A stretch of 64,000 bases of DNA from Niallia sp. XMNu-256 (GTDB taxonomy: Bacteria; Bacillota; Bacilli; Bacillales; Cytobacillaceae). The notes below the pieces were generated by a model, which saw only the letters and a list, made by a program, of their open reading frames with translations, was not told where the DNA came from and did no database searches. Below, piece after piece: positions 33,250 to 50,327 of this stretch (position 1 is the stretch's first letter; each line of letters opens with the position of its first letter). The position numbers and the translations under genes were made by a program. Where the stretch lies: assembly GCF_036670015.1 (NCBI RefSeq), contig NZ_CP137636.1, positions 3,636,501 through 3,700,500 of the forward strand. The letters are read 5' to 3'.

Positions 33250-34857
33250 TTGAAAGGAAACCATTTCAGATTTATATTTTTTGCTCTTTTTATTTTTGTG
33301 CTTGCGGGCTGTACGGAGTCGAAGCCCGCTCCCGAAAATACAAAAGACAACGAACGAAAAAATGACGAGCTAGTGCTTGCCTTTGGGTCGGAGCCTGAAA
33401 GTGGTTTTGATCCGACGACAGGCTGGGGGCGCTATGGCTCTCCGCTTTTTCAAAGTACATTGCTAAAAAGAGATGACAAACTTAATATTGTTCATGATTT
33501 GGCAACAGGCTATGAGGTGAATGAAGCGGGCAATGTTTGGACCGTCCACATCCGAGATGATGTAAAATTCTCAGATGGACAACCTTTAACGGCTGACGAT
33601 GTTGTATTTACGTTTGAAACAGCTGCGAAAAATGGGTCTGTCGTGGATTTACATCTTTTAGAAAAAGTCGAGGCAACAGATAAGCATACTGTCCAATTTA
33701 CTTTAAAAGAGCCGCAATCAACCTTTGTGAACACGTTGATAGCTACGGGAATTGTGCCAGAACATGCATATGGGTCAGACTATGCTGAAAATCCGATCGG
33801 ATCTGGGCCGTTTCAGCTCGTCCAATGGGATAAAGGACAGCAAGTCATTGTTGAAGCAAATCCTGAATACTATGAAAAGCAGCCTTATTTTAAAAAGATA
33901 ACCTTTCTATTTTTAAACGAGGATGCTGCATTTGCTGCTGCTCAAGCGGGTAAAGTTGATTTGGCCGCCATCCCTGCAGCCTTTAGCAAACAAGAAGTAC
34001 CAGGGATGAAGTTGGAATCGTTCGAAACCGTTGACAATCGCGGAATTGCGTTTCCATATGTTAAGTCAGGAAAGCTTACAGAAGACGGGCATCCCATTGG
34101 GAATGATGTAACGGCCGATCCAGCGATTCGCCAAGCGATTAATCTGGCCGTTGACAGACAAGCCCTTGTTGATGGGATCTTAGAAGGACATGGTACCCCT
34201 GCTTATACGTCTGTTGACGGTCTTCCATGGTGGAATCCGGAAACCGTTATTGAAGAAGCTGATTTAGAAGGGTTAAGAAAGCTTTTAACGGAAGCAGGCT
34301 GGAAAGATGGGAACGGAGATGGAACGTTAGAGAAAGGGGCTTTAAAAGCTGAATTCACTCTGTATTATCCAGCGAATGATACGATACGACAATCCCTTGC
34401 GATTGCCGTTGCGGATAGGATGAAGCCACTTGGGATTGGCATCCACTTAGAAGGAGCCAGCTGGGACGTCATTGAAAAAGAAATGCATGCCAATCCTGTT
34501 CTAATGGGCTGGGGAAGTCATGACCCTTATGAAATGGTATCGATTTATGGAAGTGAAAATGCCGGGGTAGATTACTTTAACACAGGTTATTATCAAAATA
34601 AAACAGTAGACGACTATTTTGAAAAGGCGCTTCATGCTTCCACTGAAGAAGAAGCCATTCAATATTGGAAAAAAGCTCAATGGGATGGAACGACCGGTTT
34701 GAGTGCAAAAGGGGACGCTCCATGGGCATGGCTCGTGAATATTAATCACTTATACCTCGTGAAAGAAGGATTGGATATGGGTGAACAAAGAATCCATGTG
34801 CACGGACATGGCTGGCCAGCTACCGATAATATTGCCGATTGGAAGTGGACTGATTAA
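33250..34857 (+). CDS. ABC importer substrate-binding lipoprotein (nickel/peptide family 5)
   Basis: A 535-residue extracytoplasmic solute-binding protein of family 5 (NikA/CntA/OppA type). The lipoprotein signal ends VLAGC at about residue 20. Visible landmarks are LATGYEVNEAGNVWTVHIRD, SDGQPLTADDVVFTFE, GSGPFQLVQWDKG and a His-rich tail HVHGHGWP. It would deliver nickel, a nickel-metallophore or peptides to the downstream permeases. TTG 33250 is chosen, with GAGGTG six bases upstream. It converges on the nickel-pincer gene larA, which supports nickel as cargo by inference. Confidence 0.85.
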   Translation: MKGNHFRFIFFALFIFVLAGCTESKPAPENTKDNERKNDELVLAFGSEPESGFDPTTGWGRYGSPLFQSTLLKRDDKLNIVHDLATGYEVNEAGNVWTVHIRDDVKFSDGQPLTADDVVFTFETAAKNGSVVDLHLLEKVEATDKHTVQFTLKEPQSTFVNTLIATGIVPEHAYGSDYAENPIGSGPFQLVQWDKGQQVIVEANPEYYEKQPYFKKITFLFLNEDAAFAAAQAGKVDLAAIPAAFSKQEVPGMKLESFETVDNRGIAFPYVKSGKLTEDGHPIGNDVTADPAIRQAINLAVDRQALVDGILEGHGTPAYTSVDGLPWWNPETVIEEADLEGLRKLLTEAGWKDGNGDGTLEKGALKAEFTLYYPANDTIRQSLAIAVADRMKPLGIGIHLEGASWDVIEKEMHANPVLMGWGSHDPYEMVSIYGSENAGVDYFNTGYYQNKTVDDYFEKALHASTEEEAIQYWKKAQWDGTTGLSAKGDAPWAWLVNINHLYLVKEGLDMGEQRIHVHGHGWPATDNIADWKWTD

Positions 34858-34859
34858 CT

Positions 34860-35855
34860 GTGGCTTATCAAATAATTAAGTTTCTCTTATTAAAAGGAAT
34901 CCGGATGGGAACGTTGCTTGTTGCCATCTGTTTCATTTCCTTTCTACTCGTCAAAAATTCTCCGATTGACCCGGTTCAAGCCTATATCGGGGCAGATATG
35001 TTGAAAGTAAGTCCCGAGCAGCGTGCGGCAATTGAAAATTATTGGGGACTTAATGAACCAGTGATGGTTCAGTTTATCAACTGGGGATCTGCCTTGTTCA
35101 GCGGAGATTTAGGAACTTCAATGATCTTTCGCCGTCCTGTTGTTGACATTATTGGTGAACGTTTCTTCAACTCCTTAGCTCTCATGGTAACGGCTTGGGT
35201 GTTATCCGGCATTATCGGCTTTACTATGGGTGTCATTGCTGCGATGAAGAAAGGAACGTGGATCGATCGCATCATTAAATGGTATTGTTTCACCCTCGCC
35301 TCGACTCCAACATTTTGGATGGGGTTGCTGATTTTGATTGTTTTTGCTGTATGGCTAAAATGGTTTCCGATTGGGATGGGTGTTCCAGCAGGGGTCCTTG
35401 CCGAAGATGTGACATTGGCAGATAAAATTAACCATCTAATTCTCCCTGCTCTAACGCTTAGCATTGTCGGAGTGGCGAATGTCGCTTTGCATACAAGACA
35501 AAAGTTGATCGATGTGCTCGCTAGTGATTATGTGCTTTTCGCAAGAGCAAGAGGGGAATATGGCTTTCGCCTCTTTTGGAGACACGGGTTAAGAAACATC
35601 GCCTTGCCAGCGATTACGTTACAGTTTGCAGCGTTTAGCGAATTGTTTGGAGGGGCCGTGTTAGCTGAGCAAGTTTTTTCCTACCCTGGATTAGGACAGG
35701 CTACCGTAGAGGCTGGATTAAGAGGGGATGTTCCTTTGCTGCTAGGATTAGTTATTTTTAGTACCCTGTTTGTTTTTGCTGGTAATTTACTAGCGGATCT
35801 TAGTTATCGATTTTTAGATCCACGGATAAGAGAGGAGCGTTCGCTAGGATCATGA
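34860..35855 (+). CDS. ABC importer permease, NikB/DppB type
   Basis: A 331-residue permease with six membrane segments. It shows the N-terminal signature of this class (ISFLLVKNSPIDPVQAYIG) and the coupling loop DYVLFARARGEYGFRLFWRHGLRN. It starts three bases after the binding protein and overlaps the next permease by four bases (ATGA), so the operon is translationally coupled. Confidence 0.9.
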   Translation: MAYQIIKFLLLKGIRMGTLLVAICFISFLLVKNSPIDPVQAYIGADMLKVSPEQRAAIENYWGLNEPVMVQFINWGSALFSGDLGTSMIFRRPVVDIIGERFFNSLALMVTAWVLSGIIGFTMGVIAAMKKGTWIDRIIKWYCFTLASTPTFWMGLLILIVFAVWLKWFPIGMGVPAGVLAEDVTLADKINHLILPALTLSIVGVANVALHTRQKLIDVLASDYVLFARARGEYGFRLFWRHGLRNIALPAITLQFAAFSELFGGAVLAEQVFSYPGLGQATVEAGLRGDVPLLLGLVIFSTLFVFAGNLLADLSYRFLDPRIREERSLGS

Positions 35856-36688
35856 GGAACATACTCTCTGTTAATAGAAGGCAAAGAACCCTTTTTTCAA
35901 TCGTCTTTGCCGCTGTTTTTTTGGCACTGATTCTTTTAGGAAGCTTTTTACTCAACGAAAAAGGTCTAGCAAGCAATCTTCAAATTCGCCATTCTCCTCC
36001 CTCCTTTACCCATCCTTTTGGTACCGATTGGTTGGGAAGAGATATGTTTACACGAACAATAAAGGGGCTTTCGTTAAGTATTTGGGTTGGTTTAATTGGA
36101 GCGATTAGCAGTGTATCGATCGCTCTTTTTCTAGGGATGGCTGCTGCAACCATGGGGAAAGCAGCCGATCGATTCCTCTCATGGCTGATTGACCTTTTTC
36201 TAAGTGTCCCGCATTTAGTCACCTTGATTTTGATCTCCTTTACTCTCGGTGGCGGCTTTAAAGGGATTGTCATCGGCCTGGCGTTAACTCATTGGCCAAG
36301 CTTAGCCCGTGTGATTCGTGCAGAGGTGATGCAAGTTCGCTCCGCAGAGTTTGTGGAAGTGTCCCGGAAAATGGGAAAGTCAACATGGTGGATTGCGGTT
36401 CATCATATTCTCCCCCACGTTTTTCCCCAGCTTTTAATTGGGTTTATGCTGATGTTTCCACATGTGATTTTACATGAAGCAGCGGTTACCTTTTTAGGTT
36501 TGGGGATGTCTCCTCATGAACCAGCCATTGGGGTAATTTTATCGGAATCAATGAAACATTTATCTGCGGGAATGTGGTGGCTCGCTTTTTTCCCAGGGCT
36601 CTGCTTGCTGTTCATTGTCAGGGCATTTGATCAGATTGGTGAAAATGTGAGGGTGTGGATCGATCCAACGAGAGCTCCCGATGAATAA
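35852..36688 (+). CDS. ABC importer permease, NikC/DppC type
   Basis: A 278-residue partner permease. It has the DppC/NikC landmark HPFGTDWLGRDMFTRTIKG, the coupling loop AEFVEVSRKMGKSTWWIAVHHILPH, and AAVTFLGLGMSPHEPAIG. It forms the channel with the preceding permease. It is followed after 29 bases by the first ATPase. Confidence 0.9.
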   Translation: MRNILSVNRRQRTLFSIVFAAVFLALILLGSFLLNEKGLASNLQIRHSPPSFTHPFGTDWLGRDMFTRTIKGLSLSIWVGLIGAISSVSIALFLGMAAATMGKAADRFLSWLIDLFLSVPHLVTLILISFTLGGGFKGIVIGLALTHWPSLARVIRAEVMQVRSAEFVEVSRKMGKSTWWIAVHHILPHVFPQLLIGFMLMFPHVILHEAAVTFLGLGMSPHEPAIGVILSESMKHLSAGMWWLAFFPGLCLLFIVRAFDQIGENVRVWIDPTRAPDE

Positions 36689-36717
36689 TAAAAGACAAAT
36701 GTTGAGAGGTTAAAAGC

Positions 36718-37641
36718 ATGTCTATTTTAGAAGTAGAAAATTTTTCCGTACGATTCAAACAATATGGCGCTGGCCTTAAAAAAATGGATCAGATAGCGAT
36801 TTCGAATGTAAGTATTTCCCTAGAGGAAGGCGAAATTCTGGCGGTTGTAGGGGCGAGTGGATCAGGGAAAAGCTTGCTTGCCCATGGGATTCTCGGGATT
36901 CTGCCAAGCAATGCGAAAACGAGTGGCATCATTAAATATAAAGGGGAACTTCTAACCTTGAAACGACAAAAGGCTTTGCGTGGAAAGGAAATTGCACTCG
37001 TTCCACAATCAGTCAACTTTCTCGATCCGCTTATGCGTGTTGGAAAACAAGTCCGTGCATCTGCCAACAGTGGAGATCGGGCTGCACTTCAACGTAAAGT
37101 GTTCAAGCGTTATCATTTAAAAAAAGAAGTAGAAACGATGTATCCCTTTCAGCTTTCGGGTGGAATGGCGCGGAGGGCACTTCTTTCGACTGCAATGGTC
37201 AGCGGGGCAAACGTAATCATTGCGGACGAACCGACTCCAGGTCTAGATCCGGTCGTGATTAAAGAGGCTTTAACCAATTTCCGAGAGTTTGCTAATCAAG
37301 GCTGTGCCGTTATGTTGATTACCCATGATATCGAATCGGCTCTTCACATCGCCGATAAAATTGCTGTATTTTATGCGGGAACGACAGTGGAAGTCGCTCC
37401 AGTGGAGGATTTTGCAGGACAAGGGGAGGCCTTGAGACATCCGTATACGAAGGCGTTATGGAGGGCGCTTCCGCAAAATGATTTTATACCGATTCCAGGC
37501 TCACAGCCCCGTTCAAACGAGTTGCCTAAAGGGTGCTCATTCGCCCCCCGTTGTCCAATCGCAACTTCTAAATGTGAAGGAGTCATGCCAGACATAAGGG
37601 AAGTGCGCAACGGTTGGGTGAGGTGTGATCATGCATATTGA
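36718..37641 (+). CDS. ABC importer ATPase, NikD/DppD type
   Basis: A 307-residue ATP-binding subunit: Walker A GASGSGKS, Q-loop VPQSVNFLDP, signature LSGGMARRA, Walker B VIIADEPTPGLD, and the H-loop ITHD. The C-terminal extension contains the oligopeptide-type Cys motif (GCSFAPRCPIATSKCEG), as in importers of nickel and peptides. It overlaps the second ATPase. Confidence 0.92.
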   Translation: MSILEVENFSVRFKQYGAGLKKMDQIAISNVSISLEEGEILAVVGASGSGKSLLAHGILGILPSNAKTSGIIKYKGELLTLKRQKALRGKEIALVPQSVNFLDPLMRVGKQVRASANSGDRAALQRKVFKRYHLKKEVETMYPFQLSGGMARRALLSTAMVSGANVIIADEPTPGLDPVVIKEALTNFREFANQGCAVMLITHDIESALHIADKIAVFYAGTTVEVAPVEDFAGQGEALRHPYTKALWRALPQNDFIPIPGSQPRSNELPKGCSFAPRCPIATSKCEGVMPDIREVRNGWVRCDHAY

Positions 37642-38236
37642 GGCAAATGCGATTGGATTTCGCTATGAAAAAGGACCATGGTTGTTCCGAGATGTGAATT
37701 TAACCTTTCGTTCCGGGGAAATCATTGGAATAACCGGACAGAGCGGCTACGGGAAAACAACCTTTTGCCGAATATTGGCTGGGTTCGAGAAGCCTGTTGA
37801 AGGAACGGTAACTTTTGATGGGAAGCCGTATAGTAACAAAAGCTATCATCCGGTTCAGCTGGTTTTTCAACATCCTGAAAAAGCGGTCAATCCACGCTGG
37901 AAAATGAAAAAAGTACTGAATGAAGGATGGCAGCCTGATGGGGAAATCCTTGATTTATTAGGAATTCAGCAGGAATGGTTAGAGCGTTGGCCCAATGAAT
38001 TATCCGGTGGAGAGCTGCAACGCTTTTGTGTCGCTCGAGCATTGGGACCACATACCCGCTTTCTCATTGCTGATGAAATGACTACGATGCTTGATGCTAT
38101 TACACAAGCCCAAATCTGGCATGCCGTATTGGAAATTGCCCAACAGCGAAACATGGGGATCATCATCGTCAGTCATGAAGCCAAGTTGCTCGAGAGACTT
38201 TGCCACCGCATCATCCAGTTTGATCAATTAAAATAA
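37631..38236 (+). CDS. ABC importer ATPase, NikE/DppF type
   Basis: A compact 201-residue ATPase, Walker A GQSGYGKT, signature LSGGELQRF, Walker B FLIADEMTTMLD and H-loop VSHE. It lacks the C-terminal oligopeptide domain of its partner. ATG 37631 follows GAGGTG; a GTG six bases earlier is possible. Note Met in DEMTT, where DEPTS is usual. Confidence 0.9.
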   Translation: MHIEANAIGFRYEKGPWLFRDVNLTFRSGEIIGITGQSGYGKTTFCRILAGFEKPVEGTVTFDGKPYSNKSYHPVQLVFQHPEKAVNPRWKMKKVLNEGWQPDGEILDLLGIQQEWLERWPNELSGGELQRFCVARALGPHTRFLIADEMTTMLDAITQAQIWHAVLEIAQQRNMGIIIVSHEAKLLERLCHRIIQFDQLK

Positions 38237-38290
38237 GAGGCTCCCTTTCTACTCTCCAGAAACTGGAAGGTAACTCAGGGAACCTCTTTA
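38234..38290. terminator. Bidirectional terminator between the ABC operon and larA
   Basis: AGAGGCTCCCT pairs with AGGGAACCTCT (one mismatch) over a long loop. TTTATTTATTT follows on the plus strand and TTATTTTAATT on the minus strand. Only this hairpin separates the two convergent units. Confidence 0.75.
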
Positions 38291-38295
38291 TTTAT

Positions 38296-39546
38296 TTACA
38301 TCGGTAAGAAGTAGCCGTCTTCGTCGAACTTCATTTCTTGCAGATCTTCTAATACTTCGATGTTCTCTTTGTCTTTTAGCTCATTAAAAATGACTTCAGA
38401 TACATATAACTCGCCAATATGAAGGGTATTTGGAATTCTTACAATTCTAGCCTCTTCGGATTTGACTCCCCAGGTCGCTCGTAGCGCTGCTTTAAGGGCT
38501 TCTTGGTCATTATCTAGCACAATTGGAATTTTGGCCCGATCTAAGAATGTACTTGTGACCACATTTTCATTCATGACTTTCTTATCAATTTTTTCAAATA
38601 GACGTTTTGTAGTTAAGTCAGATAAGCCAATTCCTAACGCATTTCCATGACTCACATCACTCAAGTTAGAAGCGATTAAATATTTGACTCTTGGTTTTTC
38701 TGGTTCTTCTACTCCAAGCACGCGGATACGACCAATAATATTCGTATCCATTCCTGTTCCACTGTAGTTTTTACCGATTTCATCTACAACTAAAATATCC
38801 ATTTCATCGACAGGAAGACTTGGCATTAAATTGAACGCCTGTTTCAACAACTCACTCTCACGCTCTTCGATTTGATCGGGTTCAACGGCTTCAATAATCG
38901 CTGTTTCCTCATGAGCATTTTCGACAATGCCAATCCCGAATAACGTTTTTGAGTTGCTGATTGCAACCTTCCCTACTTCAGGCATCATTTCACTAATTCC
39001 TTTTACGCCATATGTATGGAGGGCTAAAGCCTGTTTGTGTTTTCCCATTCCAATTGAAGCCATTTTTAAGATACCGCTCTCAATTTTATTTTTGAAATCA
39101 GTATGTGGCTTAATTCGGCCCATGACGATGATTCCGTCCGCATTGAAGGCAATCTCGTCTACATAAACAGGAACACCGTCTGATGTTTTACCAACTTCGA
39201 CAACTTCCATTGAAGAGCGAATTTCACAACCTGTGTATTCTTCCGTAATGCCTAGGCTCTCTAACATTTCCTTCTGGCCTTCAGCAGTTGCTCCGCCATG
39301 ACTTCCCATTGCTGGAAAAATAAATGGCGTTGCGCCTCTTTTTCTAATTTCATCAGCCACAGATTTAACAATTAAAGGAATATTGGCAATCCCACGGCTT
39401 CCGGCTGTAATGGCAACTTCCATGCCTGGCTTAATCTTTTCATCGGCGTTAACGGCTAGGAATTGCTCAGTAATTGTCGCTGGAATATCTTTTAAACTAT
39501 CTGCCTGAAACTTTTGTCTGATTTTTGCAACCTTTGGAAATGACAT
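38296..39546 (-). CDS. LarA family nickel-pincer racemase/epimerase
   Basis: A 416-residue LarA homologue (DUF2088 plus C-terminal domain). LarA-type enzymes racemise or epimerise 2-hydroxyacids with a covalently bound nickel-pincer nucleotide. Candidate site residues in the right spacing are R51, H83 (MGSHGGAT), H148 (KPHTDF), K161 (GILKM, cofactor lysine) and H177 (ALALH). The substrate is not lactate by default: the neighbours are acid-sugar genes (pdxA2, dtnK, gntP), so a C2-epimerase for a sugar acid such as D-erythronate/D-threonate is my inference. AAAGGAG lies eight bases before the ATG. It is separated from pdxA2 by array B. Confidence 0.9.
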   Translation of the reverse strand: MSFPKVAKIRQKFQADSLKDIPATITEQFLAVNADEKIKPGMEVAITAGSRGIANIPLIVKSVADEIRKRGATPFIFPAMGSHGGATAEGQKEMLESLGITEEYTGCEIRSSMEVVEVGKTSDGVPVYVDEIAFNADGIIVMGRIKPHTDFKNKIESGILKMASIGMGKHKQALALHTYGVKGISEMMPEVGKVAISNSKTLFGIGIVENAHEETAIIEAVEPDQIEERESELLKQAFNLMPSLPVDEMDILVVDEIGKNYSGTGMDTNIIGRIRVLGVEEPEKPRVKYLIASNLSDVSHGNALGIGLSDLTTKRLFEKIDKKVMNENVVTSTFLDRAKIPIVLDNDQEALKAALRATWGVKSEEARIVRIPNTLHIGELYVSEVIFNELKDKENIEVLEDLQEMKFDEDGYFLPM

Positions 39547-39612
39547 GTACTACACTCCTTTTCCTAGTTCAATTAAGATATATCTAAATTTTAGACTTTA
39601 TCAGGGGATGGG

Positions 39613-39855
39613 ATGATGACCTTTTTATCCTATTTCTAAGGGATTTCGGTCCTCATAAGCCTGATGAAGACATTTTTACCTTGGTTCTAATGCGGTTTCG
39701 GTCTTCATTTGCTCGATGAAGACACTTTATCCTTGGTTCTAATGTGTTTTCGGTCTTCATTTGCTCGATGAAGACACTTTATTCTTGGTTCTAATGTGTT
39801 TTCGGTCTTCATGAACCTCATAAAGACCCTTTATCCTTGGTTCTTACACAGCCTT
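39613..39855. repeat. Tandem array B: four to five 52-bp units
   Basis: CGGTC(T/C)TCAT recurs at 39647, 39699, 39751 and 39803, exactly 52 bases apart, with a partial unit before. Each unit contains GTCTTCAT and ATGAAGAC as an inverted pair, followed by (A)CTTTATCCTTGGTTC. It fills the space between pdxA2 and larA. Confidence 0.92.
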
Positions 39856-39895
39856 CAGCAGATCTATGTAATACATCGGTTTTTAAAACAAGGGA

Positions 39896-39923: not shown

Positions 39924-39956
39924 TGTTGCCTGTAACGTTGATTCAGTTTAGTATGC

Positions 39957-40955
39957 TTAATTCTTCGGAGCCAATTCAATCGCCATGCGTAGAGCTTCTT
40001 TTAATGATTGCTCATCAGCGATGTTTTTCCCAGCGATATCAAAAGCAGTACCATGGTCAACACTTGTTCGGATGATTGGTAAGCCGACTGTAATGTTGAC
40101 TCCAGCTTCTAGGCCTAGAACTTTAATTGGGCCGTGGCCTTGGTCGTGATATTGGGCAACAACGATATCGAAGTCCCCGCGTTTTGCTCTAAAGAATAAC
40201 GTATCTGCTGGAAGTGGACCCTGTACATCGACTCCCTCTGCCTTTGCCTTTTCAATCGCTGGAATAATTTTTTCTTCCTCTTCACCATGACCAAAAAGTC
40301 CATTCTCACCCGCATGTGGGTTAATTCCACATACAGCGATTCTTGGTGATTCGATTCCTGCTTTTTTCAATGTATCATGTGCAAGCTTGATTACTTTATA
40401 TTGGCGGTCCACATTTATCGTATTGATTGCATCCAATAATCCGATATGTGTTGTTACATGAATGACTCTTAATCCAGGTGCAGATAGCATCATCGCGAAA
40501 TCTTTTGTGTTCGTTAATTCTGCCAAAATTTCAGTATGGCCTGGATACATATGCCCTGCTTTATGAAGCGCTTCTTTGTTGAGTGGAGCCGTACAAATTC
40601 CTTGAATTTTTCCCTCATTCGCATAAGAGATTGCCTTTTCTAAATAGCGGAAAGCTGCGTTTCCAGCCTCTGAATTTACCTCTCCCCATGGTAAATTTTC
40701 AGAAACTAAGTCTAGATCGATGATATCAATCGTTCCGTGTTGGAACTTTCCTTCTTCAGGATTTGCTATTGAATTTAGTTCTAGGTTTATATTCGTAATG
40801 CCTAATGCTCTTTTTAAAATCTTAAAATCTCCAACTACAAACGGTTGGCATTGATCATAAATATTAGGATCATTTAATGATTTAGCGATAATTTCAGGTC
40901 CGACACCTGAAGGGTCCCCCATTGTAATTGCAATGATTGGTTTGTATGTAGTCAT
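39957..40955 (-). CDS. pdxA2: PdxA2: 4-phosphoacid-sugar dehydrogenase (4-phospho-D-threonate type)
   Basis: A 332-residue PdxA-family enzyme. In the D-threonate pathway PdxA2 oxidises and decarboxylates 4-phospho-D-threonate to dihydroxyacetone phosphate. Seen: MGDPSGVGPEI at the start, metal-ligand segments GHTEIL, HVTTHIGL and YHDQGHGPIK, and RTSVDHGTAFDIAG. The YHDQGH variant and the neighbouring dtnK separate it from pyridoxine-pathway PdxA. ATG 40955 is preceded by GGAGG. Confidence 0.9.
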   Translation of the reverse strand: MTTYKPIIAITMGDPSGVGPEIIAKSLNDPNIYDQCQPFVVGDFKILKRALGITNINLELNSIANPEEGKFQHGTIDIIDLDLVSENLPWGEVNSEAGNAAFRYLEKAISYANEGKIQGICTAPLNKEALHKAGHMYPGHTEILAELTNTKDFAMMLSAPGLRVIHVTTHIGLLDAINTINVDRQYKVIKLAHDTLKKAGIESPRIAVCGINPHAGENGLFGHGEEEEKIIPAIEKAKAEGVDVQGPLPADTLFFRAKRGDFDIVVAQYHDQGHGPIKVLGLEAGVNITVGLPIIRTSVDHGTAFDIAGKNIADEQSLKEALRMAIELAPKN

Positions 40956-41060
40956 CGTGATTCCTCCATATTGCCCAAACATATGTCTATGTATGAGACA
41001 GATGTTTGGGGATTTTTATATATCTCAAATTCGCTCGCCGAGGACTTCGGCTGAATGAAG

Positions 41061-42680: not shown

Positions 42681-44459
42681 TTATTTTAACTTGCGCCACA
42701 ATGTAGAACGATTCACTCCTAATCGTTTTGCTGCTTTCGATTGATTAAAGCCTTCCTCTTCTAACACCTTTGTAATGATTTGCTTTTCGATCTCTTCCAA
42801 TGTACCACTTAAATCAATCGAGTCTTCTTTCCTCGCTTCAGCGATCTTATCAACTTGCTTCTCTATCCCTTTTAACACTTTCTCAACATCTTTTTTCTCG
42901 ATATAGTAAGAGTTTGAACCAATAAACAATTGTTCGATGACTCTTTTCAATTGTCCCACATTCCCTGGCCAATCATAGTTCATCAGTTCCTCTAAAGCAT
43001 CCGGGCGAATTCCGACAACCTCATTCCCATATTTAGGATGAAACTCTGAAATAAAAACAGGGACTAAATCTTCAATGTCTTCCCGTCGTTCACGGAGAGG
43101 CGGGATAGAAATGATTTGCTTTGCCACCACGTCATATAAGCCATCATGGAATGTTCCTTGTTTGACCATTCCCTCAAGATTCTCCTCTGAGGACACGAGC
43201 CATTGTAATCCTTGGTTGTTATCATTGGTAGCCAATGTATATAGCTGTTTTTGAATGTCAGAATTTAACCGATCCATATTTTTCAAATAGATGATTCCAT
43301 TGGCGTATTTTTGAAAAAAGTTTTCCGCAATAAGCGTTTCCCATTGTTCTACACTCAATAATTCACATTGGAAAATAATATATGGTTCATTCTCTGTCTT
43401 TCTATTGAAATAAATCGAGCCAGCCGCCACATCTTTTCCACTGCCTTTTTCACCGTAAATGAGAACAGGCATTTTGTTTTTGCCATACTGTTCTATTTGA
43501 TGGAGTACGCCTTTAATGGACTCGCTTCTCCCGGCATTTGGGGTATAGACCGCAGAGGTATGAATCTCAATGGCATTCTCATTCATATTCCCACTTTGGG
43601 AAGCATGGGTATGGGTACTTTTTTCGAAAAATAAAGCGATGATATTTTCTTGAGGACATGCCTTTACATTCCAGAAAGTTTGATTCATATAAATGGGAAT
43701 TGCTTGATTTTTCTCGGTTAAAATAGTTTCTTTGATTAATTCATTGATTTCCTGTTTATTCTCCAGTTGCATCCATTGAAATTCACTATGAAAAGATTGG
43801 TTTCCATAAATAAGTTGCTTTTCATGATTAATTACTACAACCCCTTGCTCCTGACAGTCAAGGATGTCTTTAAGCATTGAAACTTTCTGCTGCATGCCTG
43901 AAAAGACGCGATAGGTCCTGCGCGCTTCTTCTAGTGCTTCGAAAATGGCTTCTTTTCCAGATGTGATTAGAACGCCAGTCATTCCTAATTCCTTTGCGGC
44001 ATTTATGGTTACAACGTCACCGATGATGACTTCAACCCCATCCTTTTTTAGCCTCTCTAGTTTCTCTTTTACCTGTTTGTCTTTTGTAATCGTAGCGGTG
44101 GTAATCTCAATATCAAGGAGTTTACAAATGGTCGAAGCACCTTGAGTAATATTAGCGAACCCAACAATTGCCGCTTTCCGTGAAAATCCTTTCACAAGGG
44201 TGATCATTCGTAAGACATCATAGCCAGATACTTGAATGTCAATTACAGGGATGGAGACGGCTTCCTGAATCATCGAAGCTGTACCCCCTCGGCTAATGAT
44301 CACATGATACCCATCATTTTCAGCCGCTTTGGCAATTGCCACCCCTTCATATAAGTTCCCTAATTCAATCTGAAATAGAAAATCGTGAACCTCTTGCTGG
44401 ATTTCCTTCATCATTTCAAACAGCCCATCATAAGGGACAATCACTAGAGCTTTAATCAT
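42681..44459 (-). CDS. PrpR-N/AAA/Fis-type regulator with a degenerate ATPase domain
   Basis: A 592-residue regulator. Residues 1-185 are a PrpR-N sensor domain (SRGGTASMIQEAV, VIDIQVSGYDVLRM); a PAS-like part follows (about 195-280); residues about 310-530 are an AAA domain of the sigma-54 activator type; and the end is a Fis-type helix-turn-helix (FNQSKAAKRLGVNRSTLWRKL). Walker A is present (GEKGSGKD, 336-343), but the GAFTGA loop is absent, and Walker B reads GIIYLKNM where GxxFLDEI is expected. It probably cannot drive sigma-54 promoters and may act as a ligand-responsive DNA-binding protein. The start overlaps no other gene. Confidence 0.85.
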   Translation of the reverse strand: MIKALVIVPYDGLFEMMKEIQQEVHDFLFQIELGNLYEGVAIAKAAENDGYHVIISRGGTASMIQEAVSIPVIDIQVSGYDVLRMITLVKGFSRKAAIVGFANITQGASTICKLLDIEITTATITKDKQVKEKLERLKKDGVEVIIGDVVTINAAKELGMTGVLITSGKEAIFEALEEARRTYRVFSGMQQKVSMLKDILDCQEQGVVVINHEKQLIYGNQSFHSEFQWMQLENKQEINELIKETILTEKNQAIPIYMNQTFWNVKACPQENIIALFFEKSTHTHASQSGNMNENAIEIHTSAVYTPNAGRSESIKGVLHQIEQYGKNKMPVLIYGEKGSGKDVAAGSIYFNRKTENEPYIIFQCELLSVEQWETLIAENFFQKYANGIIYLKNMDRLNSDIQKQLYTLATNDNNQGLQWLVSSEENLEGMVKQGTFHDGLYDVVAKQIISIPPLRERREDIEDLVPVFISEFHPKYGNEVVGIRPDALEELMNYDWPGNVGQLKRVIEQLFIGSNSYYIEKKDVEKVLKGIEKQVDKIAEARKEDSIDLSGTLEEIEKQIITKVLEEEGFNQSKAAKRLGVNRSTLWRKLK

Positions 44460-44532
44460 TTCTCCATCACCTACTATTTCTGCTATATCGTTTCCTGTGT
44501 TATTCTACTGTAATTCGTATATCGTACAAAAA

Positions 44533-45333
44533 TTAAGATGTTAATACCTTATTCATACTTCCACTTTCATAGCCTTTTAGATCGAGAGTGACATATTTAT
44601 ATCCAAATTGTTGAAGCTGCTCCATAATCTCTTTATGGTTCGCTAAAATGGTTCCCATGTCCTGTGGCTCAACTTCGATTCGAGCAATTTCTTCATGGGT
44701 CCGTACACGGATTTGTTTAACCCCCAATGATTTTAGATAAGCCTCTGACTTCTCTACCTTTGTTAATTTTTCCTGTGTAATTCTTTCCCCGTAAGCAATC
44801 CGTGAAGACAAGCAGGCAAATGATGGTTTTTCCCAAGTTGGTAAGTCTAAGTGTTTGGAGAGTTCTCGAATTTCCTCTTTATAAAGATTCGCTTCTTGAA
44901 GCGGTCCACGCACACCATGTTCTTTTGCTGCCTGCATTCCAGGGCGATGTTCACTCATATCATCAGCAATTAAGCCGTAAACGACATTTTCAAACCCATG
45001 TTTATGCATGACTGGGATGATTTCCTCAAACAAGCCATTTTTACAAAAATAACAGCGATTCCGGTCATTTTCGGCATAGCCTGGGATATTTAGTTCAGAT
45101 GTTTCAATGACTTTATGGGTCACACCTATTTTATTAGCTAACCTTTTTGCTTCTTCTAGTTCACTTGAAGGATAGGTTTCCGAATCCGCTGTGACGGCCA
45201 AGACATTTTCAACCCCTAGGACATCAACAGCTACTTTTAATAAAAAGGTGCTATCAACGCCACCTGAAAAAGCAACGACGACATTGCCCATTTCCTTTAG
45301 GATTTCCTTCAGACGTTCATATTTCTCGTTCAT
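44533..45333 (-). CDS. larE: LarE, sulfur transferase of nickel-pincer cofactor synthesis
   Basis: A 266-residue PP-loop enzyme that activates and thiolates the pyridinium-dicarboxylate mononucleotide. The ATP motif AFSGGVDSTF is at residues 21-30. Cys174 (FACLSSR) corresponds to the sacrificial cysteine of lactobacillar LarE. Two further cysteines, C94 and C97 (RCYFCK), would allow an iron-sulfur cluster form that spares the enzyme; that is an inference. ATG 45333 is preceded by GGGAGG at seven bases. Confidence 0.93.
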   Translation of the reverse strand: MNEKYERLKEILKEMGNVVVAFSGGVDSTFLLKVAVDVLGVENVLAVTADSETYPSSELEEAKRLANKIGVTHKVIETSELNIPGYAENDRNRCYFCKNGLFEEIIPVMHKHGFENVVYGLIADDMSEHRPGMQAAKEHGVRGPLQEANLYKEEIRELSKHLDLPTWEKPSFACLSSRIAYGERITQEKLTKVEKSEAYLKSLGVKQIRVRTHEEIARIEVEPQDMGTILANHKEIMEQLQQFGYKYVTLDLKGYESGSMNKVLTS

Positions 45334-45391
45334 TGTCATTCCTCCCATTCTATTGATTTACATAGTCTAAAAGGGAAGTTCAATTTTACCG

Positions 45392-45409
45392 TTTGCATTT
45401 TGCAACACC
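45392..45409. promoter_or_regulatory. TTGCA/TTGCAACA motif upstream of larE
   Basis: TTTGCATTTTGCAACACC, about 60 bases before larE. It contains the TTGCAACA motif seen upstream of dtnK and gntP. Confidence 0.4.
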
Positions 45410-45476
45410 ATTACAATTATATGCGAACTCCCTGTAAAGTAAAAGTCGTACCCACGATTTTCTGTTATTAAATGGA

Positions 45477-45520
45477 AAAGGGCTATCCAAAGTCGTTAAT
45501 ACGACGGTTTGGACAGCCCT
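45477..45520 (-). terminator. Terminator of gntP
   Basis: Minus strand GGGCTGTCCAAA pairs with TTTGGATAGCCC (one G-T pair), with an inner CGTCGT/ACGAC stem, then TTTTCC. A T-run on the plus strand also exists. Confidence 0.8.
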
Positions 45521-45541
45521 CAGCTTTTTTGTATATTCGTA

Positions 45542-46888
45542 TTATACAAATAGATCTAATATTAACGTGAATACCAATCCACAAACTGCAACAATTGTTG
45601 ACAGAACCGTGTAGGTTCCAAAGGCTTCTTTTAAGTTCATGCCTAAAGATTCTTTAACCATCCAGAATCCTGCGTCATTAACATGGGATGCAATCGCACT
45701 ACCCGCTCCAGTTGCAAGTGCAACAAGCGCTAAGTTGACATCAGGCATTGTAGCAAGTAATGGAATGACTAACCCAGGAGTTGCTAGCGTCGCAACGGTT
45801 CCAGAGCCTAAACAAATACGTAATAACGCAGCTACTGTCCAAGCAAACAAAATTGGTGACATCGCTGTACCTTCAAATAATGTAGCGATATAATCCCCAA
45901 CACCGCCATCAATTAGAACTTGCTTTAAGGCACCGCCGCCCCCGATAATTAATAGAAGCATTCCTAGTGCATTAACGGCAGATGTACAAGACGCCATTAA
46001 TGTTTTCATTGGAATTTTTCTGCGTAATCCCATTGTATATAGGGCGAATAATACAGAAAGCACCATAGCAGTTGATGATGTAGCAATAAAACGAATAAAT
46101 ATTACAAGTCCATTATCCCCAAATCCTAAAGCTGGTTGCACCATATCTACAATCGCACCAAATCCCATTAAGATAACTGGGAATAAAGCTGTAAATACAC
46201 TGATTCCAAAACCAGGTGTTTCTTCTAATTTAAATTCTTTTTTAACACCAAAAGATTCGCTTCCTTCTCTAGTAAAGGCAGTTGGTACAATTTTTTGCGC
46301 AATCTTCGGATACCAAATCCCAGCAATGATACAAGTTGGGATGGCAACAATAATTCCATAGATTAATACCATTCCCACACTTGCTCCATACTCAGCAGAA
46401 ACCGCAGTTGGACCTGGATGTGGAGGCAAGAATGCGTGAGTTGCTAACGCAGCCGTTACCATTGGTAGTCCTAATTTTACAATTGAAACTTTTAATTCTC
46501 TCGCAATAGAGAAAATAATTGGAACTAATAATACAATTGTCACTTCAAGGAATAAAGCGATTCCACAAATGAATGATGCAAAAAGAACAGCCCAATGAAC
46601 TCTCTTTGCACCGAATTTACCAATTAAGGTTGTAGCAATACGGTGAGCACCACCGGAATCAGCAATTAATCGACCAAGCATCGCGCCTAATCCAAAAATA
46701 ATCCCGATATGACCGAGCGTTCCCCCTAAACCGCTTTCAATTGAGCCCACTACATCCATCACTGGAATTCCAAGAGCTAATGCCACAAGGAACGATACAA
46801 TGATTAAGGATACAAATGTATTCAATTTGAACTTCATAATAAGGATAAGTAATAATAATACCCCTATAGCTATAATGACCAAAGGCAT
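45542..46888 (-). CDS. GntP family acid-sugar permease
   Basis: A 448-residue permease with about 12-14 membrane segments. It shows the GntP-family landmarks GLGAMLGRLIADSGGA, FLPPHPGPTAVSAEYGA, and the C-terminal GAGSAIASHVNDAGFWMVKE. GntP proteins import gluconate and related sugar acids by proton symport. Given dtnK and pdxA2, a four-carbon acid (threonate or erythronate) is likely. A sigma-A promoter with a perfect cre box lies about 280 bases upstream. Confidence 0.9.
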   Translation of the reverse strand: MPLVIIAIGVLLLLILIMKFKLNTFVSLIIVSFLVALALGIPVMDVVGSIESGLGGTLGHIGIIFGLGAMLGRLIADSGGAHRIATTLIGKFGAKRVHWAVLFASFICGIALFLEVTIVLLVPIIFSIARELKVSIVKLGLPMVTAALATHAFLPPHPGPTAVSAEYGASVGMVLIYGIIVAIPTCIIAGIWYPKIAQKIVPTAFTREGSESFGVKKEFKLEETPGFGISVFTALFPVILMGFGAIVDMVQPALGFGDNGLVIFIRFIATSSTAMVLSVLFALYTMGLRRKIPMKTLMASCTSAVNALGMLLLIIGGGGALKQVLIDGGVGDYIATLFEGTAMSPILFAWTVAALLRICLGSGTVATLATPGLVIPLLATMPDVNLALVALATGAGSAIASHVNDAGFWMVKESLGMNLKEAFGTYTVLSTIVAVCGLVFTLILDLFV

Positions 46889-46930
46889 AATTGATTGTCC
46901 CCCTAAACCTTTTTATATTTTTGTATGTTC

Positions 46931-47091
46931 GTTGCAAAACTATTCTTTTTAGTGAAGCTTCTTCCCCTGCAACATTAACTACTATGACCCTGTGAACATT
47001 GGGCCAGTATCATTAATCTCTATACGTAGAAGTCTAAACGAATGGTTATTAGCCTTATTGTAAACCTCACGAAAAAGATAAAATTGCAACA
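46931..47091. promoter_or_regulatory. Three TTGCAAC motifs in the gntP leader
   Basis: GTTGCAA at 46931, TGCAACA at 46968 and TTGCAACA at 47084. The first two face each other as a dyad. They lie between the predicted transcription start and gntP. Confidence 0.4.
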
Positions 47092-47155
47092 CACCGATCC
47101 ACTTGACGCCAGTAAAACATACATCTTTTTACAAACTGTTGTTATTAGCATCATG

Positions 47156-47169
47156 TGTGAACGTTTACA
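47156..47169 (-). promoter_or_regulatory. Perfect cre (CcpA) box at the gntP promoter
   Basis: Minus strand TGTAAACGTTCACA matches TGWAANCGNTNWCA at all fixed positions. It begins two bases after the -10 element, so CcpA would block initiation when glucose is present. Confidence 0.75.
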
Positions 47170-47170
47170 T

Positions 47171-47198
47171 TGTATAATGATATGTCGAACCTTGTCAA
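47171..47198 (-). promoter_or_regulatory. Sigma-A promoter of gntP
   Basis: TTGACA, a 16-base spacer and TATACA on the minus strand. Confidence 0.7.
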
Positions 47199-47248
47199 CA
47201 TAATAATTTTGTTTCTTTTTACAACATATTATTTGTTATTTATCGCAT

Positions 47249-47286
47249 AAAAATGCGGATAGAGGCAAGACCCTTTTATCCGCATT
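47249..47286 (-). terminator. Terminator after larC2
   Basis: AATGCGGATA and TATCCGCATT form a 10-bp stem, followed by TTTTTATG on the minus strand. It separates the lar operon from gntP. Confidence 0.8.
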
Positions 47287-47376
47287 CATTGATTTATTTA
47301 ATTAAAATGGCTAGATCGTCATGGGTATAGTTGAGGGAAAATTACTTAGAAGGCTTGAAAAGAATCGTACCTAACC

Positions 47377-47847
47377 TTAATTGGAATCCATTGTTTGCCA
47401 AACTTGTTGATACACTTCTTTTAAGGGGACCTTGTGACGTGTTGCTAATTCTTTACATTCCTCATATTCTGGAGCCCTTTGAACGAGGTTTCCCTCATAA
47501 TATCCCTCTTTTATTGTTACAGGGCCCCATTTCGTTTCAACCGTTTTGAACCTTCTTTCGAGTCGATGTACGGTCAATGGGTAATAGCGAACCCCTAATG
47601 TCGTTGTTTCATTAAATAAAATTTCCTTTATTGCGTTGAGTTTTTGTCTGGATGAAAGAGTTTGAAGTAATACGCCTGGTCGATTTTTTTTCATATAAAT
47701 GGGGGTGTAAAATACATCATTTGCCCCCGCATCGAACAGCAAATCCATAACATAGCCAAGCCACTCCCCTGACACGTCATCAAGATTCACTTCCAACTTG
47801 ACCATTTCTTCATCCATATGTTCATCGTTATGAGGGTGAGATTTCAA
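47377..47847 (-). CDS. larC2: LarC2: C-terminal part of nickel-insertion protein LarC
   Basis: A 156-residue protein equal to the C-terminal domain of LarC, the CTP-dependent nickel chelatase that completes the pincer cofactor. Motifs: VKLEVNLDDVSGEWLGYVMDLLF, TPIYMKKNRPGVLLQTL and RYYPLTVHRLERR. It is separated from larC1 by about 114 bases with in-frame stops; both lie in the same frame. TTG 47847 is the best start, with GGGAGGAG eight bases upstream. In Lactiplantibacillus the two parts are joined by programmed frameshifting; here they appear to be separate polypeptides. Confidence 0.88.
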   Translation of the reverse strand: MKSHPHNDEHMDEEMVKLEVNLDDVSGEWLGYVMDLLFDAGANDVFYTPIYMKKNRPGVLLQTLSSRQKLNAIKEILFNETTTLGVRYYPLTVHRLERRFKTVETKWGPVTIKEGYYEGNLVQRAPEYEECKELATRHKVPLKEVYQQVWQTMDSN

Positions 47848-47872
47848 TTTTACTACTCCTCCCATTTAAATA

Positions 47873-47934
47873 CTTGTCCGATCTTTAGCTGCTGATTCGG
47901 ACTTCTTCGCGCAAGTATATACCTGCTCTGTCCG
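47873..47934. repeat. Isolated array-A-like hairpin unit between larC1 and larC2
   Basis: CTTGTCCG...TTCGGAC (GTCCG at 47876, CGGAC at 47898) has the same arms as array A, and a second GTCCG follows 54 bases after the first. It lies in the spacer that splits larC. Confidence 0.6.
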
Positions 47935-47961
47935 ATTAAGCTATTTAGTTATGGTAAATCC

Positions 47962-49089
47962 CTATTCACCAATAACTACGCGAAGGAGATTCGGATGGTC
48001 TTTAAAGGTTTTCGTTCCAGCTCCATAACCAATCGCTTGGACTTTCATTGATGGAAGCACACAAAATTCCTCAGCAAGTACCGCTGCAATGGCTGCACCT
48101 GTTGGGGTCGTTAGTTCAAATTTGACATCACTTTGTTGAATTGGCACCCCTTTTAAGATTTCGAGGGTGGCTGGCGCAGGGACTGGATAGATTCCATGGT
48201 CAATATGTATTTTTCCAGAGCCGACAGGGATGGCAGCTGATTTTATGATCTTTATATCGAGTTGATGAATTAAAATCGCTGCCCCGACAATATCAATGAT
48301 CGAATCAACGGCACCGACTTCATGAAAATGAACTTCTTCTAGTGGCATTCCATGTATATGTCCCTCAGCTTCACCTATTTTGCGAAAGATTTTTAATGCG
48401 GTTTCTTTTACTTCCTCTGCTAACTCGGAAGTTTGAATCATTTTTACAATATCCTTGTATGAGCGGTGATGGTGACCATGTGCGTGGCTATGATCGTGAT
48501 TGTGCCCATGACTATGATCGTGATCATGATTATGATCATGGGTATGACTATGTTCGTGATCATGGCTGTGATAATGGGTATGACTATGTTCGTGATCATG
48601 ATTGTGATCATGTGCATGACTATGTTCGTGGTCATGATTGTGATCATGCGCATGGCTATGTTCGTGGTCATGGCTGTGATCATGCGCATGGCTATGTTCG
48701 TGGTCATGATTGTGATCATGTGCATGACTATGTTCGTGGTCATGATTGTGATCATGCGCATGGCTATGTTCGTGGTCATGGCTGTGATCATGCGCATGGC
48801 TATGTTCGTGGTCATGATTGTGATCATGTGCATGACTATGTTCGTGATCATGACTGTGATCACGGGCATGACTATGTCCGTGGTGAGTAGTTGTCAACTC
48901 AACATCAAACTTCGTGCTAGTAATTCCGTTCTTGTTTACTTTTTTCCAAATCAACTTATACTCATCTTCAAATTTTAGTTTCTTTAATTCTCTTTCTAAA
49001 GTGATTGGATCTGCCCCTGCATCTAGAAGGGCGCCGATGAACATATCACCGCTTATTCCTGAAAAACAATCAATATACAGGGTTTTCAT
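47962..49089 (-). CDS. larC1: LarC1: N-terminal part of LarC with a very large His-rich insert
   Basis: A 375-residue protein. The start (TLYIDCFSGISGDMFIGALLDAGA) and the C-terminal half (HEVGAVDSIIDIVGAAI, ELTTPTGAAIAAVLAEEFC) are LarC. Between them, residues about 68-215 consist almost only of repeats of the type HSHAHDHNHDHE, twelve residues long and encoded by near-identical 36-bp repeats. That is roughly 75 histidines, probably a nickel store or delivery domain; such inserts are known in LarC and HypB but this is very long. It overlaps larB by four bases. Confidence 0.92.
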   Translation of the reverse strand: MKTLYIDCFSGISGDMFIGALLDAGADPITLERELKKLKFEDEYKLIWKKVNKNGITSTKFDVELTTTHHGHSHARDHSHDHEHSHAHDHNHDHEHSHAHDHSHDHEHSHAHDHNHDHEHSHAHDHNHDHEHSHAHDHSHDHEHSHAHDHNHDHEHSHAHDHNHDHEHSHTHYHSHDHEHSHTHDHNHDHDHSHGHNHDHSHAHGHHHRSYKDIVKMIQTSELAEEVKETALKIFRKIGEAEGHIHGMPLEEVHFHEVGAVDSIIDIVGAAILIHQLDIKIIKSAAIPVGSGKIHIDHGIYPVPAPATLEILKGVPIQQSDVKFELTTPTGAAIAAVLAEEFCVLPSMKVQAIGYGAGTKTFKDHPNLLRVVIGE

Positions 49090-49841
49090 TCATTCTTAGC
49101 TCCTTTTTTTGCGATATTATCAATTAGTACTGCATTATAGGCGGCACCGAATCCATTATCGATATTGACTACACTAATTCCCGATGCACAGGAATTTAAC
49201 ATCGTTAGCAATGCTGATAACCCATTGAAATTAGCACCATAGCCAACACTTGTTGGAACAGCAATAACTGGATGTGACACAAGCCCTCCGACCACACTTG
49301 GAAGTGCCCCTTCCATTCCCGCAACAACAACTGAGACGGTTGCTTGTTGGATTTGTTCAATATGATCAAACAAGCGGTGGATTCCCGCAACCCCTACGTC
49401 ATAAAAACGACGAACTTCACTTCCCAATGCCTCTGCTGTAACAGCCGCTTCCTCAGCGACTTTAAGATCTGATGTTCCGGCACAAACAATCGCAATATAC
49501 CCGTGGGTAGATGGCTTCTGTTTCGTATCCTTTTTCCAGTAAAGAATGCTTGCTGTTTCATTGTATGTAAACTCTGGATAATCACGCAGAATCGAATCTG
49601 CTTTATCTTTAGAAATTCTCGTAACTAATACATTGTCACCTTTCGATCGAATGGCTTTTATAATCGCATGAATTTGTTCCGTTGTTTTCCCTTCACCATA
49701 AATGACTTCTGGGAACCCTTGACGATTCTTTCGGTGGTGATCGACCTTTGCAAACCCTAGATTCTCATAGGTTGCTAACTTTTCCTTTGCCTCTGTAACA
49801 CTTAATGTGCCTGCTTGGACTTGCTTTAAAATTTCTTCCAT
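49086..49841 (-). CDS. larB: LarB, carboxylase/hydrolase of nickel-pincer cofactor synthesis
   Basis: A 251-residue enzyme that carboxylates nicotinic acid adenine dinucleotide at C5 and releases AMP, the first step of the cofactor pathway. The PurE-like C-terminal domain is clear: VCAGTSDLKVAEEAA, RFYDVGVAGIHRL, VVAGMEGALPSVVGGL, PTSVGYGANFNGLSALLTMLNSC. An N-terminal segment carries FPEVIYGEGKT. I chose ATG 49841, where the family start (MEEILKQVQ) lies. Its 3' end overlaps larC1. Confidence 0.95.
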   Translation of the reverse strand: MEEILKQVQAGTLSVTEAKEKLATYENLGFAKVDHHRKNRQGFPEVIYGEGKTTEQIHAIIKAIRSKGDNVLVTRISKDKADSILRDYPEFTYNETASILYWKKDTKQKPSTHGYIAIVCAGTSDLKVAEEAAVTAEALGSEVRRFYDVGVAGIHRLFDHIEQIQQATVSVVVAGMEGALPSVVGGLVSHPVIAVPTSVGYGANFNGLSALLTMLNSCASGISVVNIDNGFGAAYNAVLIDNIAKKGAKNE

Positions 49842-49902
49842 TATTGTTTCCCACACCTTACAAAAAATTTGGATGCCGCGCCCATCCTTCATTTAGCTAG
49901 AG

Positions 49903-49929
49903 CCCAATATAATCGGACTCTATATTGGG
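49903..49929. promoter_or_regulatory. Inverted repeat upstream of larB
   Basis: CCCAATATA and TATATTGGG, nine-base perfect arms nine bases apart. There is no T-run, so it is more likely an operator or RNA hairpin than a terminator. Confidence 0.45.
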
Positions 49930-50012
49930 ACATGTCATTATACACTTCATTGTAGATAAATGAAAAGTTTGGAGGCGGCTCTTATTCCTTATAATCTTAC
50001 GCCCAAGGAGAC

Positions 50013-50327
50013 TTATTCCTCTAAAAGACTTTCGACTCTCGCTACTTTATCTTCCATTTTGCGCTGTTTATCACGACGATCATCAATTCGAATATTTGTA
50101 CAAACCCTAGCAAGTCCCTTTTCAAAAGGAACTTCATGGATCGCCTGAATGACTTCAAATAGTTTAGGTAGATCGCCTTCAATGATCGTATTCATCGGAG
50201 TTAATTGGAAGCGGATATCCCCTTGCTCCTCATATTTTTTCAACACCTTCTGAATATCGGCCACATAATGACTCACACTAGGAGATTCTGTACCTACAGG
50301 GATTACCGTCACATCAACAATTGCCAT
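50013..50327 (-). CDS. MTH1187/DUF77 family thiamine-binding-like protein
   Basis: A 104-residue protein of the DUF77 family (YqgV-like): MAIVDVTVIPVGTESPSVSHYV, LTPMNTIIEGDLPKLFEVI and VCTNIRIDDRRDKQR. Members form ferredoxin-like tetramers, and some bind thiamine. It lies 171 bases upstream of larB on the same strand with no terminator, so it may be the first gene of the lar operon. A role linked to the pyridinium cofactor would be new and is speculative. Confidence 0.85.
   Translation of the reverse strand: MAIVDVTVIPVGTESPSVSHYVADIQKVLKKYEEQGDIRFQLTPMNTIIEGDLPKLFEVIQAIHEVPFEKGLARVCTNIRIDDRRDKQRKMEDKVARVESLLEE

Follow-up and report, generated by a model that had tools for sequence, protein, structure and literature searches.

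A locus in Niallia sp. XMNu-256, at positions 33241 to 49892 of the window (the whole stretch of 64,000 nucleotides analysed here, from contig NZ_CP137636.1), encodes a homologue of the lactate racemase LarA together with genes for the nickel-pincer nucleotide (NPN) cofactor, a nickel-type ABC importer, and a kinase and a dehydrogenase that appear to act on four-carbon (C4) acid sugars. We propose, with moderate confidence in the full pathway, that the LarA homologue is an NPN-dependent C2-epimerase that feeds a D-threonate kinase/PdxA2 route. This interpretation, first put forward in a preliminary description of the DNA, is the best available and is backed here by a linkage survey, by the single copy of the gene in the genome and by a structure model; the substrate itself is a proposal. 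All genes named in that description were recovered in place by the list of open reading frames (ORFs) and by Pfam and NCBIfam profiles, as follows.

33241..34857, plus strand: nickel-binding lipoprotein (YntA-type) of the ABC importer; PF00496, best PDB matches 4ofl/4ofo (YpYntA)
34860..35855, plus strand: ABC importer permease 1; PF00528, operon order
35852..36688, plus strand: ABC importer permease 2; ORF overlapping the preceding gene, same-order homologue in locus L100 (57% identity), no profile run
36718..37641, plus strand: ABC importer ATPase 1; PF00005, oligo_HPY
37625..38236, plus strand: ABC importer ATPase 2; ORF overlapping the preceding one, in-order homologue in L100 (41%), no profile run
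38296..39546, minus strand: larA homologue, NPN isomerase group 22, proposed C4 sugar-acid (D-erythronate/D-threonate) 2-epimerase; NF052515 552 bits (cut-off 400), Lar_N 38.8/23.3
39957..40982, minus strand: pdxA2, PdxA2-type dehydrogenase, proposed D-threonate-4-phosphate dehydrogenase; TIGR00557 382/290, PF04166
41061..42383, minus strand: DUF1537 four-carbon acid sugar kinase, DtnK-like; PF07005 and PF17042
42681..44459, minus strand: regulator; PrpR_N, AAA+ and Fis helix-turn-helix (Pfam), without the sigma-54 contact motif
44533..45348, minus strand: larE, sulfur transferase of NPN synthesis; TIGR00268 377 bits (cut-off 150)
45542..46888, minus strand: gntP, GntP-family sugar-acid/H+ symporter, proposed substrate importer; TIGR00791 576 bits (cut-off 293)
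47377..47865, minus strand: larC2, C-terminal part of the nickel insertase; NF052512 151 bits (cut-off 50)
47962..49089, minus strand: larC1, N-terminal part of the nickel insertase; TIGR00299 226 bits (cut-off 90)
49086..49892, minus strand: larB, carboxylase/hydrolase of NPN synthesis; NF033503 316 bits (cut-off 175)

The minus-strand genes are transcribed in the order larB, larC1, larC2, gntP, larE, regulator, DUF1537 kinase, pdxA2 and larA homologue, and the five-gene ABC operon on the plus strand (33241-38236) converges on them. In the proposed pathway, a C4 sugar acid would enter through GntP here and through a TRAP transporter in certain relatives, and the YntA-type importer would bring in nickel. 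LarB, LarE and LarC would produce NPN, with which the cell's single LarA homologue would be loaded; this enzyme would invert C2 of the acid via transient hydride transfer to NPN, most likely interconverting D-erythronate and D-threonate. The DUF1537 kinase would then phosphorylate D-threonate at C4, and PdxA2 would oxidise C3 with loss of CO2 to yield dihydroxyacetone phosphate (DHAP). Because the C2 configuration is lost at the PdxA2 step, one kinase and one dehydrogenase would suffice for both epimers. The conversion of D-threonate to DHAP by DtnK and PdxA2 was reportedly worked out by Zhang et al. in 2016.

The linkage of larA, kinase and pdxA2 was surveyed in GTDB contigs, which were scanned with 16 aligned clade members and gave the best 80 of 124 loci; neighbours were detected by tblastn (E 1e-8) with the window genes as queries, within 10 kb where the contig allowed. 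The 65 clade loci consist of 32 with at least 70% larA identity to the window gene (near) and 33 with 55-65% (intermediate). They were compared with a contrast set of 53 group 22 loci from the order and the phylum (39-48% identity, about 9 kb on each side), some of them from genomes that also hold a clade larA. Kinase and pdxA2 both lay near larA at 42 of the 65 clade loci, whereas neither was found at any of the 53 contrast loci, from which L122 (52% identity, both genes present) had been excluded beforehand for that reason. Near loci had the pair at 28 of 32, the regulator at 30, a GntP or TRAP transporter at 29 and at least one of larB, larC and larE at 25. One relative, Heyndrickxia coagulans 36D1 (L157), has a LarA homologue with 81% identity to that of the window. 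The pair was present at 14 of 33 intermediate loci and at 3 of 15 with 54% identity or less, and also in 24 of 26 regions from same-order genomes at 59% identity or above (these genomes partly overlap the main set). At the genome level, a DUF1537 gene occurred in 27/27 same-order genomes with a clade larA versus 138/370 others, although two samples of 397 were taken as identical and relatedness inflates such tests; in two of the 27 (G750, G758) it lay away from larA. With the linked state mapped on a tree of 130 rows (quick search, SH-aLRT only), 12 changes were required versus 38.7 in shuffles, none of 500 being as low. Kinase, pdxA and larA (52.6% identical) also form one gene run beyond Bacillota, on a plasmid of Rubrobacter indicoceani. 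The survey proposed in the preliminary description was thus positive, with exceptions given below, and supports a tie of the LarA homologue to the DUF1537/PdxA pathway beyond mere neighbourhood.

The LarA homologue passed one LarA-family model only, NF052515 (nickel pincer cofactor-dependent isomerase, group 22), with the 552 bits listed above. That family name carries no substrate; one is proposed here for the sub-clade tied to DUF1537 and PdxA. The protein scored 23 bits against the lactate racemase model and 24 and 37 bits against malate racemase models, whose cut-offs are 460-500. It was assigned to the LarA fold; searching the PDB sequences with a profile built from group alignment A2 gave no match at 0.01, but the fold search did find one. 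In a sequence-level alignment at low identity, the NPN-binding residues R75, K184 and H200 of LarA correspond to R51, K161 and H177 here, with a Lys-to-His spacing of 16 in both proteins, and are invariant in 130/130 aligned rows; the catalytic histidines H108 and H174 correspond to H83 and H148, again in 130/130 rows. Directly after the second catalytic histidine stands Thr-Asp, where LarA has Phe-Phe, a replacement that argues against lactate as the substrate. A lactate or malate racemase was therefore rejected on profile scores and loop residues, and these computed features make it unlikely that the enzyme acts only on lactate or malate, the outcome that would have overturned the preliminary description. 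The D-gluconate 2-epimerases GntE1/GntE2 (LarAH19, LarAH20; 4NAR) differ as well: they are 15% identical to the window protein in structural alignment and act on C6 substrates in a hexonate context, whereas the window locus has a tetronate context.

These data also bear on the idea that a lactate- or malate-type racemase module merely came to lie beside an unrelated tetronate operon. Genes for larB, larC and larE accompany other group 22 genes too (e.g. at L103, L106 and L108), and 23 of the 65 clade loci lack the pair, as a chance neighbourhood would allow; however, the pair recurs in Rubrobacter and in divergent Bacillota and clusters on the tree, and the Thr-Asp replacement and the scores of 23-37 bits do not suit such a racemase. 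We consider this explanation highly improbable.

A residue signature was found at positions 170, 172, 264, 326, 327, 356 and 359, where 43/43 linked main-clade rows have H Q T N E R W; position 275 and others vary. L203, L208 and Rubrobacter carry it with R at 326 or K at 356, and clade members without the gene pair have the same or nearly the same signature (K at 356 in L198-L200; S at 264 in L202). The signature was rejected as proof of substrate, since unlinked members carry it and the linked L122 and L214 do not.

The identity of the kinase and the dehydrogenase is certain at the domain level. Among DUF1537 models the kinase matched NF047819 (D-threonate kinase) best, with 346.5 bits against a cut-off of 450, and reached 192 of 350 bits with the 3-oxo-tetronate kinase model. 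PdxA2 scored 366 bits against NF002891 (D-threonate-4-phosphate dehydrogenase; cut-off 583). Its nearest PDB sequence was 4jqp (456 bits), named 4-hydroxythreonine-4-phosphate dehydrogenase, followed by 2hi1 (4-hydroxythreonine-4-phosphate dehydrogenase 2; 327 bits) and 6e85 (D-threonate 4-phosphate dehydrogenase; 323 bits); other PdxA sequences gave at most 212 bits. We call the proteins DtnK-like and PdxA2-like, in the sense of working like them; the name DtnK was withheld because the score lies below the NF047819 cut-off. The dtnK and pdxA2 of the preliminary description therefore hold as to domains and nearest structures, and both stay under the NCBI equivalog cut-offs.

The same scores bear on a reading with the same enzyme class and pathway and another C4 acid, namely L-erythronate/L-threonate, or the 4-phosphate esters if epimerisation follows the kinase. 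The sequence of reactions does not follow from the gene order, and in the available text of PMC11770544 some LarA homologues act with low efficiency as epimerases of 4-deoxy-threonate/erythronate, in the D as well as the L series, so that C3 of either hand is tolerated. Against it, the margin of 346.5 bits for D-threonate kinase over 192 for 3-oxo-tetronate kinase points to the D series, and a phosphorylated LarA substrate was not found in the portions of LarA papers covered. We regard this alternative as unlikely. For the D-erythronate C2-epimerase proposed earlier, the tie to the DUF1537/PdxA pathway speaks in favour; computation did not separate D-erythronate/D-threonate from other C4 acids or a 4-phosphate ester.

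In the D-erythronate/L-threonate route of LtnD, DenD, OtnI, OtnK and OtnC, dehydrogenases take away the C2 hydroxyl. This route, as given in the available text of PMC10580937, also degrades C4 acid sugars with a DUF1537 kinase; the window differs in that its only DUF1537 protein is DtnK-like and falls short of the 3-oxo-tetronate kinase model.

The window genome has a single DUF1537 gene and a single PdxA gene. PdxJ (PF03740) had no match in it, compared with matches in 4 of 14 control genomes; without PdxJ, PdxA cannot lead to vitamin B6 by the 1-deoxy-D-xylulose 5-phosphate (DXP) route, and a vitamin B6 role for PdxA was ruled out on this ground. The result counts against a salvage or detoxification function, in which internal erythronate from 4-phosphoerythronate would be recycled or a vitamin B6 precursor supplied, as does the GntP- or TRAP-type importer near larA at 29 of 32 close loci. 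Salvage would fit two statements in the available text of PMC7954711, that 4-phosphoerythronate gives rise to erythronate in Bacillus and that DUF1537 proteins act on 4-hydroxythreonine, but it seems very doubtful to us. Among the control genomes, Haloferax volcanii matched group 22, DUF1537 and PdxA and had no PdxJ match, and the same larA/DUF1537/PdxA trio may exist in haloarchaea.

On the nickel side, LarB, LarC and LarE make the nickel-pincer cofactor, and larB, larC1, larC2 and larE each scored above their own NCBIfam cut-offs. Searched with the Lar_N and group 22 models, the window genome (4.36 Mb, 99.74% complete) yielded one LarA homologue, and within the reach of these models it is the one enzyme that the cofactor genes serve. 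NiFe hydrogenase was not found in the genome; urease is encoded away from the lar locus. The ABC binding protein matched YpYntA (4ofl) with 500.7 bits over residues 44-537 of 538, the next kind giving 178 bits, and this near full-length similarity indicates a YntA-type nickel-binding protein. Apart from this likeness to the Ynt nickel importer (4OFL, 4OFO), the window operon differs in adjoining lar genes, with the urease elsewhere. At L100, in another genome, larB, larE and a group 22 larA likewise have homologues of all five ABC operon genes next to them. The nickel/peptide-type ABC operon and the self-contained nickel-pincer system of the preliminary description are both borne out, the former by the closeness to a nickel-binding protein of solved structure, the latter by the single LarA homologue with larB, larC, larE and a YntA-type importer adjoining. 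Some relatives possess several LarA enzymes, as at L068, where about 4.5 kb separate the group 22 gene from a canonical LarA (15062-16324; lactate racemase model 552 bits, cut-off 460).

By coordinates and sequence, larC1 and larC2 share one reading frame, with a stop and 96 bases between them; a programmed -1 frameshift was therefore ruled out for the window. The gap and frame differ among relatives, where start codons were chosen by nearest match. Residues 69-208 of larC1 form a 140-residue histidine-rich repeat with 71 His, encoded by a 36/108-base tandem array (48473-48884); the histidine-rich stretch is perhaps a nickel store.

Neighbours in relatives gave hints to the substrate. A TRAP transporter occurs at 18 of the 65 near and intermediate loci (DctM count). 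Near-clade loci have it between kinase and pdxA2, whereas most of the intermediate loci that carry it have it between kinase and larA. The locus thus shares with the D-threonate pathway of DtnK and PdxA2 a DUF1537 kinase, a PdxA-type dehydrogenase and, in these relatives, a TRAP transporter, but adds the LarA homologue, its cofactor genes and the nickel importer. A model of the L161 TRAP binding protein (5950-6981) was 51-52% identical to 4pdd and 43-44% to 4pdh, 4p9k and 4pak. We take 4pdd, 4pdh and 4p9k to be D-erythronate complexes; if that is right, the importer would bind erythronate, the kinase being of the D-threonate type, and a C2-epimerase would be the missing step. Related closed structures hold pantoate or erythronate, and a caution is that ligands co-purified (PMC11668362, available text). 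At the 33 intermediate loci, an aldehyde dehydrogenase occurs at 14 and an iron alcohol dehydrogenase at 15, and these perhaps make the acid from an aldehyde or polyol. At L173 (11220-13930) and other intermediate loci, a lactaldehyde-dehydrogenase-like aldehyde dehydrogenase and an iron alcohol dehydrogenase (models under cut-offs) stand between larA and pdxA2, and L170 has an aldehyde:ferredoxin oxidoreductase homologue (6293-8020) as well as TRAP, larA and alcohol dehydrogenase genes.

Several observations weigh against the proposed pathway. The kinase and dehydrogenase score below the DtnK and D-threonate-4-phosphate dehydrogenase cut-offs, and 4jqp, the nearest PdxA structure, is named for 4-hydroxythreonine 4-phosphate. 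D-erythronate as the ligand of 4pdd, 4pdh and 4p9k is a presumption, and the nickel importer may also serve urease. Asp72 of LarA aligns with Ser50 and Lys298 with Arg275, where the alignment is uncertain, and Arg275 varies in group 22; the available text of PMC7583248 describes residues, K298 among them, as missing in other LarA groups. L122 and L214 have the kinase/pdxA2 pair (in L214 7 kb from larA, on the other strand) and yet lack most of the residue signature. Finally, the pair was not seen at 23 of 65 clade loci. Five of these are cut or gapped (L170, L190, L204, L205, L206); L159 and L169 have lost the kinase and carry a decayed pdxA2 with larA intact; L168 has larA alone; and the remaining 15, of which 11 come from Paenibacillus, are complete intermediate loci with nearly the same signature. 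The four near-clade exceptions among 32 are L204 (assembly gap), L168, L159 and L169. Those pairless intermediate loci whose neighbours were inspected have sugar ABC or MFS transporters, proteins of the dehydratase or tartronate-semialdehyde-reductase type, or TRAP together with aldehyde/alcohol dehydrogenases. Either different routes supply or consume the same acid at these loci or their enzyme has a lower specificity, and the substrate at these intermediate loci may be broader or different. The decay at L159 and L169 (8900-10000 in each) was seen in Paenibacillus sp. FJAT-29882 and Peribacillus huizhouensis. A split larA at L204/L087 was ruled out, a run of N marking an assembly gap.

These loci lead to the view that the LarA homologue accepts more sugar acids, from C4 to C6, the C4 pathway being only one outlet of several. 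Near-identical signatures stand beside a ManD-type dehydratase (L195) and a galactarate-dehydratase-type protein (L196), both under curated cut-offs, beside tartronate-semialdehyde-reductase-type dehydrogenases (L175, L189; under cut-offs) and beside sugar ABC transporters, and enzymes of hexonates or hexuronates are neighbours of further members of group 22. In contrast, kinase and PdxA2 are linked at 28 of 32 near loci and in Rubrobacter, and this protein is the sole LarA homologue of the window genome; the wider range is in our judgement rather improbable for it. Five of six other group 22 plasmid regions adjoin an altronate/UxaA-type or mannonate dehydratase, a glucuronate isomerase or a mandelate-racemase-family protein, and the sixth (Haloarcula) is without such neighbours, which suggests that group 22 comprises sugar-acid epimerases of several chain lengths. 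At L227, L228, L229 and L231 (Sulfitobacter, Haladaptatus, Paenibacillus and Sporomusa plasmids), where an altronate/UxaA or mannonate dehydratase or glucuronate isomerase adjoins larA, the group 22 proteins are candidate hexonate epimerases.

We know of no LarA-type or nickel-dependent step in the published D-threonate pathway, and to our knowledge no nickel cofactor is known in this carbon pathway. If the C2-epimerase proposal is true, it would give a function to LarA group 22, which is frequent in the phylum (above the cut-off in 85 of 398 sampled genomes); it would bring a nickel cofactor into a carbon pathway and explain how both C2 epimers could be used with one DUF1537 kinase and one PdxA. 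The locus layout suggests that, thanks to nickel, a single short pathway can handle two sister forms of one food. A broader claim, of a dedicated, conserved nickel-pincer D-erythronate 2-epimerase in Bacillales and beyond that merges D-erythronate into the D-threonate kinase/PdxA2 route, of growth on this carbon source that requires nickel, and of a first function for group 22 as C4-C6 sugar-acid C2-epimerases, is a serious but tentative possibility. Among the literature matches listed, no paper joined LarA with DUF1537, PdxA, threonate or erythronate, except for the 4-deoxy compounds of PMC11770544; Table S1 of PMC7583248 (neighbours per LarA group) lay outside the search and may name DUF1537/PdxA for group 22. 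The parts are known, and the combination and the epimerase step are new to the literature searched, that table aside.

GAFTGA-like motifs form the sigma-54 contact motif of activators. This motif was absent from the window regulator and from 43/43 homologous ORFs over 500 amino acids, and -24/-12 sites with at most two mismatches showed no excess in the whole window (22 matches versus 26 expected). A sigma-54 activator was therefore rejected, and the regulator probably works without sigma-54.

Between pdxA2 and larA, the 410-base gap contains about four copies of a 52-base unit (39612-39844), whose sole match in the genome is its own site. The gene at 50013-50339 encodes a thiamine-binding-protein homologue (PF01910) and is outside the nickel-epimerase system. 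A cobalamin riboswitch is located at 2484-2684 on the minus strand of the window.

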